64,000 bases of DNA from Alphaproteobacteria bacterium. Its GTDB lineage: Bacteria; Pseudomonadota; Alphaproteobacteria; Caulobacterales; Hyphomonadaceae. The notes beneath the pieces are model-generated. The model had not been told where the DNA came from. It worked only from the letters and a program-made list of their open reading frames with translations, and ran no database searches. Where the stretch lies: positions 1 through 64,000 of the forward strand of contig JAHJSB010000023.1 of NCBI GenBank assembly GCA_018830285.1, given 5' to 3'. The first letter of the stretch is position 1. Each line of letters starts with the position of its first letter. Below are positions 56,261-58,797 of this stretch, piece after piece. The position numbers and the translations under genes were made by a program.

Positions 56261-56881
56261 CTACTGGTTGGCGACCCGCAGGAAGCGGTTGCGCAGGTCT
56301 GCGTCAGACTTGAACACGCCGGTAAACTGGGTCGTGATCGTGGTGACGTCCTTGTGGTGGACGCCCCGGGTCGACATGCACTCGTGCACGGCTTCGATCA
56401 GGACGGCGGTTCCCATCGGCGCAAGGCTGTCAGTGATCGCATCGCAGATCTGTGCGGTCATCGTTTCCTGCGTCTGGAGGCGCTTGGAAAAGATCTCGAC
56501 CACACGGGCCAGCTTGGAAATACCGACCACGGCGGCGGATGGCTTGTAGGCGACATAGGCCTTGCCGATGAAGGGTGCCATGTGGTGCTCACAATGGCTC
56601 TCGACGTCGATATTGCGCAGGATGACGATGTCGTCATAGCCCTGAACGTCTTCGAACGTCCGTGACAGGTACTTCACGGGGTCTTCGTCATAGCCCGCAA
56701 ACCACTCCTTGTAGGCGTTGACGACACGCTTGGGCGTGTCGAGCAGGCCTTCGCGGCGTGGGTCGTCACCTGCCCATGCAATGAGCGTGCGCACGGCGTC
56801 TTCAGCCTCTTGCACAGTGGGGCGAACCAAGGGTTCTCCGCGAGACGTTTCGTTCTTGGGAGTGATGGCATCCATGGCCAT
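56261..56881 (-). CDS. folE: GTP cyclohydrolase I
   Basis: A 206-residue FolE converting GTP to dihydroneopterin triphosphate, the first step of folate synthesis. Zinc ligands are visible in VESHCEHHMAPF (Cys, His) and EAVHECMSTRGV (Cys), and the GISKLARVVEIFSKRLQTQE segment is highly conserved. The start is ATG 56881 (or 56875). It is divergent from cysS with a 362-base gap that also holds the cysS leader. Confidence 0.97.
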   Translation of the reverse strand: MAMDAITPKNETSRGEPLVRPTVQEAEDAVRTLIAWAGDDPRREGLLDTPKRVVNAYKEWFAGYDEDPVKYLSRTFEDVQGYDDIVILRNIDVESHCEHHMAPFIGKAYVAYKPSAAVVGISKLARVVEIFSKRLQTQETMTAQICDAITDSLAPMGTAVLIEAVHECMSTRGVHHKDVTTITTQFTGVFKSDADLRNRFLRVANQ

Positions 56882-57075
56882 GGTTAAGTGTCCTTCGACT
56901 GAGGGACGGAGGTCGAGCCGAGGCTTGGTCTGGGAAACCGGATGGCTCCCTGCCCGGACTTAACGCCCGCCCGAGTTGATACCCTCAGGGCGATGATTGG
57001 AAAGATAGGCGCGCGAATGCGCTGTTTCCAGAGAATTCTACGGTGACGCCGAGTAAATGGATGTCGTAAATTTTA

Positions 57076-57104
57076 TTGCCCGGCGTCGGGCCGGGTGATA
57101 TTGC
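57076..57104 (+). promoter_or_regulatory. Candidate promoter of the cysS leader transcript
   Basis: TTGCCC (57076-57081) and TATTGC (57099-57104) are spaced by 17 bases. The expected transcription start is then at or next to the ATG at 57111, so the leader ORF would be leaderless. A CCCGGC/GCCGGG inverted repeat (57079-57095) occupies the spacer. Hexamer matches are moderate. Confidence 0.45.
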
Positions 57105-57110
57105 GCCAAT

Positions 57111-57161
57111 ATGGATATGAACCGGCGTGCCTGCAGATTGCCAAAAGGCTGTTGTTGTTAA
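57111..57161 (+). CDS. Cys-rich leader peptide upstream of cysS
   Basis: A 16-codon ORF reading MDMNRRACRLPKGCCC, ending in three consecutive TGT codons directly followed by TAA. Four of 16 residues are Cys, in the leader of the cysteinyl-tRNA synthetase gene 82 bases downstream. The TGT run is itself the 5' arm of a hairpin (57152-57169). The start lacks a ribosome site but lies six bases after a candidate -10, consistent with leaderless translation. Shortage of Cys or Cys-tRNA would stall ribosomes on this run and change the folding of the RNA ahead. The internal ATG at 57117 is an alternative start. Confidence 0.65.
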   Translation: MDMNRRACRLPKGCCC

Positions 57162-57204
57162 GACAACAAGCGCCCATTAGGGCATCTCGCCCTCTCAATA
57201 GGGC
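57151..57204 (+). promoter_or_regulatory. Candidate attenuator hairpins in the cysS leader
   Basis: TTGTTGT (57152-57158) pairs with ACAACAA (57163-57169). Next come GCCC (57172-57175), GGGC (57180-57183), GCCC (57189-57192) and GGGC (57201-57204), which can pair as 1:2, 2:3 or 3:4, each choice excluding a neighbour. The last stem is followed by AATTTCATTTCCATTTTT, a weak U-rich tail. This is the arrangement expected of a ribosome-controlled attenuator, but stems are only 4 bp. Confidence 0.5.
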
Positions 57205-57243
57205 AATTTCATTTCCATTTTTCTCGTTCGAGCCCGAAATTCC

Positions 57244-58629
57244 ATGACTCTTCGTATCTATGACACCGCAAAACGCGCGAAACGCGTGTTTGAACCGCAG
57301 GACCCTGCCCGCATCACGCTCTATGTCTGCGGGCCAACGCCGTACAATTATGCCCATATCGGGAATGCGCGGCCACCGATAGTGTTCGATGTGCTGCGGC
57401 GGGTGCTGGCCAGCCGGTATGGCGCCAAGGCGATCTTGTACGCCCGCAACATCACCGACATTGAAGACAAGCTGATCGCCGCATCCCTGGAGACGGGCGA
57501 GTCCATCGAGGCGATCGCGCAGAAGTTCGCGAAAATCTACAATGACGACATGGTCGCGCTGAACGTCGCGCCGCCGACGATCGAGCCGTGGGCGACAGGG
57601 CATGTGCCGGAAATGATCGAGATGATCGAGAAGCTGGTGCGCAAGAAATACGCCTATGTCGGCGCGCAGGGCGTCTGGTTCTCGGTCAGTTCGATGCCGG
57701 ACTATGGCAAGCTGTCAGGGCGCAAGCCGGAGGACAATGAAGCTGGCGCGCGGGTCGAGATCGACACCGACAAGCGCGAACCGGCCGATTTTGCGCTCTG
57801 GAAATTCGCCAAGCCCGGTGAACCGGAAGATGCGATCTGGGACAGTCCGTGGGGCCGCGGCCGGCCCGGCTGGCATATCGAGTGCTCGGCCATGGCGGCC
57901 AAGCATCTCGGCAAGACCATCGACATCCATGGCGGCGGGATCGACCTGCAGTTCCCGCACCATGAGAACGAGATTGCGCAGTCGGAATGCGCGCATGGCG
58001 AGGTGATGGCGAATTACTGGATGCATAATGGCTTTCTCGACATGGGCGGGGAGAAGATGTCGAAATCGCTCGGCAATGTCGTGCTGATCCATGACCTGCT
58101 GGAAGCCTGGCCGGGCGAGGTGCTGCGCTTCGCGATGCTGAGCGGGCATTACCGCGCGCCGCTGGACTGGAACGAGGACCTGTTGAAACAGGCCAAGACC
58201 ACGCTTGACCGGGTGTATGGCGCGTTGCGGCGCGTGTGGGATGAAGAGGGGGGGCATGGGGGTGACAAGGGGGTGCTGAGGGCGTTGTCCGATGACCTCA
58301 ACACGCCCGAGGCGCTGGCCGAACTGTCTCGCCTCGCCAGTGAGGCGAACATGGCCGCTGACCACAAGGACCCTGACGCCATGGCGAATTCCCGGGTGAA
58401 CCTGCTGGCAGCGGGTGAGCTTCTGGGCCTGCTGACCAAGACTCCGAAAGAATGGGAGCAAGGCGTCGATGCTGGTGGAAACGCCCGGATCGATGCGCTG
58501 GTACAAGGGCGGATCGATGCGCGCGCGGCGCGCGACTGGGCCGAGGCGGACAGGATCCGGGACGAACTGGCCGCTGAAGGCATCGAGATCATGGACGGGC
58601 CTTCCGGCTCGACGTGGCGGCGGGCCTAG
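57244..58629 (+). CDS. cysS: Cysteinyl-tRNA synthetase
   Basis: A 461-residue class I synthetase charging tRNA-Cys. The HIGH-type motif is YNYAHIGNARPP, KMSKS is present as GEKMSKSLGN, and zinc ligands lie in LYVCGPT, in the IECSAMAAKHLG segment and in HHENEIAQSECAHGE. The C-terminal anticodon-binding domain ends with GIEIMDGPSGSTWRRA. There is no strong ribosome site at the ATG. It is preceded by the Cys-codon leader ORF and hairpins, and followed by a strong terminator 138 bases later. Confidence 0.97.
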   Translation: MTLRIYDTAKRAKRVFEPQDPARITLYVCGPTPYNYAHIGNARPPIVFDVLRRVLASRYGAKAILYARNITDIEDKLIAASLETGESIEAIAQKFAKIYNDDMVALNVAPPTIEPWATGHVPEMIEMIEKLVRKKYAYVGAQGVWFSVSSMPDYGKLSGRKPEDNEAGARVEIDTDKREPADFALWKFAKPGEPEDAIWDSPWGRGRPGWHIECSAMAAKHLGKTIDIHGGGIDLQFPHHENEIAQSECAHGEVMANYWMHNGFLDMGGEKMSKSLGNVVLIHDLLEAWPGEVLRFAMLSGHYRAPLDWNEDLLKQAKTTLDRVYGALRRVWDEEGGHGGDKGVLRALSDDLNTPEALAELSRLASEANMAADHKDPDAMANSRVNLLAAGELLGLLTKTPKEWEQGVDAGGNARIDALVQGRIDARAARDWAEADRIRDELAAEGIEIMDGPSGSTWRRA

Positions 58630-58797
58630 GCAAGCGTCAAATTTGGTCGAAATTCGCATTGCGGTGCGAACGCGATCTTTCTGTCTGTCGCCTATGCAGG
58701 TTTTCCCACCTCCCGTCGGGGTCCGGTTGTCATCAACCGCGGGCCGCGCGGAAATCATACGACCTCAGTCCCCCGATTCGTCGGGGGACTTTTTTTT
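58630..58797 (+). ncRNA. Possible small RNA or structured 3' UTR after cysS
   Basis: This gene-free stretch contains TTCGCA/TGCGAA (58653-58670), a tight CGGTTG-TCAT-CAACCG stem-loop (58724-58739) and then the strong terminator at 58767-58797. The order is that of a processed or independent small RNA of about 130-170 nt. No promoter is evident, and it resembles no RNA I know (not SRP, 6S or tmRNA). The remaining bases to 59000 show nothing else. Confidence 0.3.
58767..58797 (+). terminator. Strong intrinsic terminator downstream of cysS
   Basis: AGTCCCCCGA (58767-58776) pairs perfectly with TCGGGGGACT (58781-58790) around a TTCG tetraloop, followed by seven more T residues. It ends the cysS transcript or a small RNA following it. 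Confidence 0.95.

Follow-up and report, generated by a model that had tools for sequence, protein, structure and literature searches.

The cysteinyl-tRNA synthetase gene (cysS) of a Hyphomonas-related alphaproteobacterium is preceded by a very short open reading frame that ends in three tandem Cys codons, raising the question of whether this frame encodes a leader peptide that senses cysteine and controls cysS, and through which output it would do so. The window analyzed here is a stretch of 64,000 nucleotides (positions 1 to 64,000 of contig JAHJSB010000023.1, assembly GCA_018830285.1) from a genome whose genus is g1 in GTDB; its named relatives are Hyphomonas, and the cysS of Hyphomonas beringensis is 83% identical. 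In the window, folE (56261–56881, minus strand) and cysS (57244–58629, plus strand), the presumed controlled gene, form a divergent pair, and a promoter for cysS is therefore needed between them.

The initial annotation had placed a 16-codon ORF with four Cys codons upstream of cysS, and this upstream ORF (uORF) was found exactly at 57111–57161 on the plus strand, with its ATG at 57111–57113, the TGT TGT TGT run at 57150–57158 and the TAA stop codon at 57159–57161. The encoded peptide, MDMNRRACRLPKGCCC, has Cys residues at positions 8, 14, 15, and 16. The Cys run was also correctly described as a hairpin arm, since in the window it forms one arm of a perfect 7-bp repeat (TTGTTGT, 57152–57158; TAAG; ACAACAA, 57163–57169). 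The 12-base pattern TGYTGYTGYTRA occurs at 11 places in the genome versus three for a control pattern, and 3 of its 10 other places (L301, L306, and L311) end a reading frame with an ATG at most 40 codons away. As the pattern by itself is thus not rare, the evidence for a leader lies in its conservation before cysS and not in the Cys run.

Conservation of the leader ORF across Hyphomonas

A strong cysS match was detected in 41 of 42 Hyphomonas genomes, G031 giving a weak match only and G036 having cysS split over two contigs. Usable upstream DNA was available for 40 genomes, with G031 (no strong cysS) and the contig-edge locus of G018 (L109) left out. Also left out were L003 and L004 (the same loci as L106 and L112), L120 (the same leader as L093), L265 (contig edge), and the further genomes G072, G042, and G083, the last two of which gave no match. 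We defined a leader as an ORF of 8 to 30 codons with at least three Cys codons among its last eight and a stop codon 20 to 200 nt upstream of cysS. The comparison of relatives that the initial annotation had called for revealed such a short ORF with terminal Cys codons in 36 of the 40 Hyphomonas upstream regions, whereas no reverse complement did (0 of 40) and dinucleotide shuffles averaged 0.3 of 40, indicating that the Hyphomonas leader is not a chance occurrence.

The 36 leader-bearing genomes yielded 35 distinct leader sequences, every one of which has an ATG start and a length of exactly 16 codons. Cys occupies codons 14 and 15 without exception, as TGT in all 35 at codon 14 and as TGC (29) or TGT (6) at codon 15. 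Codon 16 encodes Cys in 20 leaders and Arg in 15. The stop codon is retained throughout but varies in type (TGA in 25, TAA in 8, and TAG in 2). The peptide is otherwise poorly conserved, with wide variation at codons 2–4 and 7–13; codons 2–13 drift, and Cys occurs in 11 to 17 of the 35 leaders at each of codons 9–13. Changes of stop type without loss of the stop, together with TGC/TGT exchange, suggest selection for translation of the uORF. A translated, Cys-ending leader peptide before cysS is therefore strongly supported by comparative genomics.

Four genomes depart from this pattern. In G033, G034, and G038 (L118, L116, and L117), both the promoter described below and the leader are missing, while the folE side is retained. 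In G016 (L119), codon 11 is a stop, and the peptide would therefore terminate at Cys10, its first Cys, with the promoter, the later Cys codons, and the hairpin region retained. These exceptions either argue against an indispensable role of the leader or reflect recent decay or assembly error. The four genomes are natural knock-outs of the leader.

Predicted promoter and fixed geometry of the leader

A predicted −35 element, TTGCCC, lies at 57076–57081, and a predicted extended −10 element, TGaTATTGC, at 57096–57104 (TG, 57096–57097; TATTGC, 57099–57104), both on the plus strand. TTG and TG-n-TA are present in all 35 distinct sequences, always in step and with a 17-nt spacer between −35 and −10. 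Relative to the uORF ATG, TTG begins at −36, TG at −16, and TA at −13 in 28 sequences; in the other 7, including the window, TTG (then at −35), TG, and TA are all one base closer. The first T of TATTGC (57099) is 12 nt upstream of the uORF's first base, which places the predicted +1 position at 57111. A simple promoter scan with an Escherichia coli–like consensus found no site at the locus, as expected of a scan that asks for that consensus.

These positions predict that the uORF is leaderless, with its AUG at the 5′ end of the transcript or no more than one base from it. The transcription start predicted in the window lies at the uORF and not downstream of 57161. With duplicates included, 33 of 38 rows have C immediately before the ATG. 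A Shine-Dalgarno–like run of at least 3 nt is absent before the uORF in 22 of 35 sequences and present in 13, in 3 of which it is 5 or 6 nt long; since a leaderless start would not need such a run, we counted these 13 against the prediction. Before cysS, the Shine-Dalgarno–like run is 3 nt in all 35 sequences.

The most striking fact beyond the initial annotation is the strict geometry of this block. The distance from the ATG to a conserved CAT(T)AGG motif downstream of the uORF is 64 nt, and that from the stop codon to the motif is 16 nt, in all 35 distinct sequences; from the −35 element to the motif it is 100 nt in 28 and 99 nt in 7. The flanks vary in length, with nine different distances (62–73) between the motif and cysS among the 35 sequences and five on the folE side among the 25 sequences with an anchor. 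No earlier report of this promoter-leader-motif geometry was found in the open-licence literature searched.

Predicted RNA structure of the leader

In the window, positions 57144–57210 are predicted to fold as three tandem hairpins, P1, P2, and P4 (z = −4.16, with 0 of 200 shuffles as good). Longer stretches were less striking (57111–57243, z = −2.31, 7 of 200 shuffles as good; 57100–57260, z = −1.39, 17 of 200). In P1 (57148–57171), the Cys-codon run pairs with the bases directly after the stop codon. P2, a predicted pairing (57172–57183; GCCC-ATTA-GGGC), contains the CAT(T)AGG motif, and the spacing of this motif from the ATG and from the stop codon is identical in 35 of 35 sequences. P4 (57189–57204; GCCCT-CTCAAT-AGGGC) is terminator-like with an imperfect U-tract. 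An alternative pairing read from the sequence (57179–57193; AGGGC-ATCTC-GCCCT) is exclusive with P2 and P4, and the partner of AGGGC differs between clades. All of these elements are on the plus strand.

With either of two registers, about 92% of cells permit P1, whose columns hardly vary. Covariation of its pairs in alignment A1 was not above shuffles in the two registers, a weak test because in A1 the window's clade has its 3′ arm shifted by 3 nt from the proper place. When 3′ arms were permuted among 29 distinct pairs, the energies of 1 of 2000 permutations were as good as those of the native set, a figure inflated by kinship among the sequences. An earlier arm swap gave mixed results, with swaps beating the native pair in L100 (34 of 34), L106 (33 of 34), and L110 (33 of 34), all of which have a poor P1. 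Shuffling the 13 nt after the stop codon gave z-scores below −1 in 20 of 29 sequences and below −2 in 7. For P3, the next hairpin, which starts from the AGGGC of the motif and has different partners in different clades, 69 of 2000 permutations were as good, a weak signal carried mainly by one clade and inflated by related sequences. P1 is thus moderately backed by arm permutation, and structural support across the genus as a whole is weak to moderate.

We also simulated folding with the ribosome stalled at codon 14 or positioned at the stop codon. The mean probability that AGGGC pairs downstream was 0.62 in both states, and it changed by more than 0.5 in only 4 of 35 sequences: down at the stop in L084 and L085 (0.89 versus 0.01) and up at the stop in L104 (0.06 versus 0.93) and L099 (0.14 versus 0.70). 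Terminator-like sites, P4 among them, were found in 4 of the 35 distinct sequences, namely the window and three close relatives, all of the window's clade. The initial annotation had proposed ribosome-mediated attenuation for the locus, of which the Cys leader peptide is strongly supported, whereas the classical terminator/antiterminator switch appears not to be borne out as a general device: neither an intrinsic terminator (no terminator-like site in 31 of 35) nor a stall/stop fold switch (a change of at most 0.5 in 31 of 35) was retained as the common output. Rfam gave no family match at the leader locus. Downstream of cysS, a perfect 9-bp stem with a TTCG loop followed by eight T (58768–58797) has the appearance of a standard intrinsic terminator, which suggests that clean U-tracts are in use elsewhere in this genome, unlike in the leader.

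Specificity and distribution of Cys leaders upstream of cysS

A covariance model (R1) was built from the Hyphomonas cysS leaders, that of G016 not among them. In 37 Hyphomonas genomes R1 gave a single strong site, located at cysS in every case and with at least 60 bits, scores that are high in part because the model was made from those sites; the next-best match anywhere in the 105 genomes of the family reached 24 bits. Across 142 alphaproteobacterial genomes, R1 scored strongly only in the window's own genome. The nine matches outside it were weak (E = 0.001–0.009) and did not lie at cysS in the five comparable genomes (G126, G137, G138, G207, and G216). Among 79 assorted cysS neighborhoods (80 loci, L013 having been dropped for its edge), there were, beyond two Hyphomonas, four loose matches, none with a terminal triple Cys.

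Applied elsewhere, the leader definition identified candidates in 14 of 28 upstream regions of the sister genus g3, 1 of 32 of other Hyphomonadaceae, and 10 of 30 of Rhodobacteraceae, the last being a biased sample of the best-scoring matches from 61 genomes searched. In other alphaproteobacterial families it identified 7 of 87 (shuffle mean, 0.5; reverse complements, 1 of 87); this sample was drawn from 241 genomes and comprised 28 best-scoring regions and 59 chosen at about one per family.

Under a looser rule, in which the most Cys-rich candidate was taken with no null, a Cys-containing ORF of 11 to 18 codons was present in 25 of the 30 Rhodobacteraceae regions, 14 of the 25 being 13 codons long. 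These ORFs often have Ile beside Cys, as in MKSICIICCIIPC, and tandem Cys, placed within codons 4 to 11, was counted by eye in 11 of 25. A TTGGC or TTGAC element starts between −37 and −35 in 14 of 25, and C occupies −1 in 23 of 25. The Rhodobacteraceae leaders are therefore probably leaderless, sharing in part a similar promoter-to-AUG layout with a different peptide. The leaders of g3, exemplified by MPLRVICCVCICG, are mostly preceded by AAGGAG or GAGGAG and so appear to be Shine-Dalgarno–led. In family f4, the endings LCCCA (L194) and WCCA (L208, read by eye) were seen. Together, these candidates suggest that the cysteine-leader logic recurs, by common descent or by convergence, while its architecture changes.

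Several further loci showed features of their own. Upstream of cysS in the Rhodobacteraceae loci L216, L229, L233, L235, and L239, among others, leaders of 13 to 15 codons consist largely of Cys and Ile codons and are probably leaderless; they are followed by a long-range GCGGGC...GCCCGC repeat around a pyrimidine-rich stretch. The g3 loci L127, L133, L134, L142, and L146 carry a Shine-Dalgarno–led Cys leader with ICCVCICG or ICCICICG, in which CCTAAGGC upstream of the ribosome site is complementary to a GCCTTAG that follows the stop codon (GTCTTAG in L127). In family f10 (L184, L185, and L189), a short ORF upstream of cysS, whose peptide opens with MTCRCCRK or MTCRSCRQ as read by eye, has its Cys codons at the start, not the end. 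Paracoccus homiensis G344 (L035) has two cysS copies (C35:6219–7568 and C26:43992–45305), and the copy most like that of Hyphomonas is without a Cys leader.

Relation to known leader peptides

The enterobacterial trp, his, and pheST leaders carry codons for the cognate amino acid in the leader ORF, as does the Hyphomonas cysS leader, but they differ in being Shine-Dalgarno–led and in their U-tract terminators. Hyphomonas is now classed in Hyphomonadales; the genus and the Hyphomonadaceae were formerly filed in Rhodobacterales. The initial annotation knew of no described leader for alphaproteobacterial cysS, a statement that is superseded by uORFC-8-2, already predicted computationally (Brewer et al. 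2021, PMC8632094). As described there, uORFC-8-2 has 145 examples upstream of cysS in Rhodobacterales, with an AUG-started uORF, tandem Cys usually at codons 14 and 15, UGC dominant, a first stem that holds the Cys codons, a second stem after it, and a U-run closing the 3′ end of every example, and ribosome-mediated attenuation was proposed. The Hyphomonas leader likewise lies directly upstream of cysS in Alphaproteobacteria with Cys14 and Cys15 in 35 of 35 sequences. In codon usage the comparison is mixed (codon 14 TGT in 35 of 35 and codon 15 TGC in 29 of 35, versus dominant UGC), and the 3′ end differs from that description (no terminator-like site in 31 of 35, versus a U-run). Set against the published stems, P1 has an arm-permutation result of 1 in 2000 with covariation not above shuffles, and the second stem one of 69 in 2000. 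As tandem Cys in the sampled Rhodobacteraceae occurs at codons 4–11, the positions given for uORFC-8-2 fit Hyphomonas better. By comparison with the published description rather than the alignment, uORFC-8-2 would either include the Hyphomonas element or be its near kin.

Leaderless polycysteine uORFs of mycobacteria, summarized in a review (Canestrari et al. 2020, via PMC9031893), contain tandem Cys and confer cysteine-dependent attenuation with an experimentally observed response. They share with the Hyphomonas leader a short ORF, leaderless there and predicted to be so here, with tandem Cys codons near the stop; they differ in belonging to another phylum and in preceding operonic genes (by the title of the work) and not cysS, and the Hyphomonas response is a prediction from sequence. 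For mycobacterial cys operons, a 2005 study of Actinobacteria (PMC1262725) had already remarked that a terminator is lacking and suggested Rho. The Sinorhizobium meliloti trpL mRNA starts with the AUG of its 14-aa leader peptide (PMC10117765). Like the Hyphomonas uORF, for which this is a prediction, trpL is an alphaproteobacterial leaderless leader peptide; it differs in its Trp codons, its target trpE, and its known trans functions. By analogy, and as far as these sources describe them, the mycobacterial uORFs and trpL show that each ingredient of the Hyphomonas leader has a precedent. In the open-licence literature searched, no work was found that had tested the cysteine response experimentally in Hyphomonas. 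The Hyphomonas leader ORF itself is confirmed, is functional as judged by its comparative signs, and belongs to an already known kind.

Probable cysteine sensing and alternative explanations

The conservation data make it probable that a cysteine-sensing leader peptide controls cysS, and cysteine sensing by a stalled ribosome appears to be the best reading of the leader. As predicted from the promoter, the transcript would begin with the uORF AUG, give or take one base, and a ribosome would load at the very 5′ end of this leaderless RNA and read the 16 codons. With ample Cys-tRNA, the ribosome would pass codons 14–16 and leave at the stop codon, the RNA behind it would fold, and cysS would be held down. 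With scarce Cys-tRNA, it would halt at codons 14–15, keeping the Cys-run arm of P1 inside the ribosome, which would change RNA folding from the CAT(T)AGG motif on and allow cysS expression. Since the U-tract is missing in most sequences, we think that the output acts through Rho or on cysS translation and not through a textbook intrinsic terminator.

The fixed distances would also be compatible with a more specific, rather unlikely form of this mechanism, in which the decision would depend on how far the RNA extends from its 5′ end and not on an antiterminator. Here, the ribosome loaded at the 5′ end would read a 16-codon ruler with Cys at codons 14–15, CAT(T)AGG would stand at its fixed 64 nt without a U-tract terminator, acting as an RNA-polymerase pause, Rho, or translation signal, and Hyphomonas and Rhodobacteraceae would have acquired or retained a similar layout while their peptides differ.

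Textbook transcription attenuation, as proposed by the initial annotation and by Brewer et al., would add an intrinsic terminator (P4/P3) and an antiterminator to the leader described here. It draws on the three tandem hairpins of the window with their exclusive alternative pairing (z = −4.16), on the terminator-like sites in the window and three close relatives, on the in silico switch of L084 and L085 (L104 and L099 go the opposite way), and on the U-run of the consensus described in PMC8632094. We nevertheless regard it as unlikely, considering the 31 sequences without a terminator-like site, the 31 without a simulated change above 0.5, and the clean stem with eight T at the 3′ end of cysS (58768–58797), unlike the leader. 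Action in trans of the peptide or of a short leader RNA, or sensing of a stress that depletes or modifies cysteine and not of Cys-tRNA, seems improbable to us: the fixed geometry would suit the release of a leader RNA of defined length, and S. meliloti trpL, a leaderless 14-codon leader, is described as having trans functions (PMC10117765, PMC7298713), but the peptide is poorly conserved outside its Cys codons.

The conserved unit might instead be promoter DNA plus an RNA hairpin, with the ORF incidental, given that the block comprising promoter and leader hardly varies in length and that P1 needs GTTG within the Cys codons, so that part of their conservation could be structural. This is very improbable, because the third base of codon 15 gives only TGC or TGT, ATG is kept and the stop changes type yet stays a stop in 35 of 35 sequences, and Cys leaders with other sequences occur in g3 and Rhodobacteraceae. 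As for a chance ORF without function, which the loss or premature stop in 4 of 40 genomes might suggest, the contrast between 36 of 40 regions and the other strand (0 of 40) or shuffles (0.3) leaves it a negligible prospect. A Cys-codon leader before the cysteinyl-tRNA synthetase gene has thus been kept in nearly all of the genus, and related groups have such leaders too, though their peptides and start modes differ. It combines strict geometry with no evident terminator and no Rfam match at the locus, and the output step of leaderless attenuators in Alphaproteobacteria becomes directly testable in culturable marine bacteria.

The folE side of the intergenic region

In the 5′ region of folE, a block at 56899–56988 (minus strand) is also present in other Hyphomonas (L003 and L116–L118). 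The fold of 56882–57010 was not better than shuffles (z = −1.05), and Rfam gave noise only for this region. The block has an inverted repeat, CTGAGGG (56899–56905)/CCCTCAG (56982–56988), between folE and the cysS promoter, and is possibly a cis-element of folE. Similar CCCTCAGGG stretches occur in other Hyphomonadaceae.
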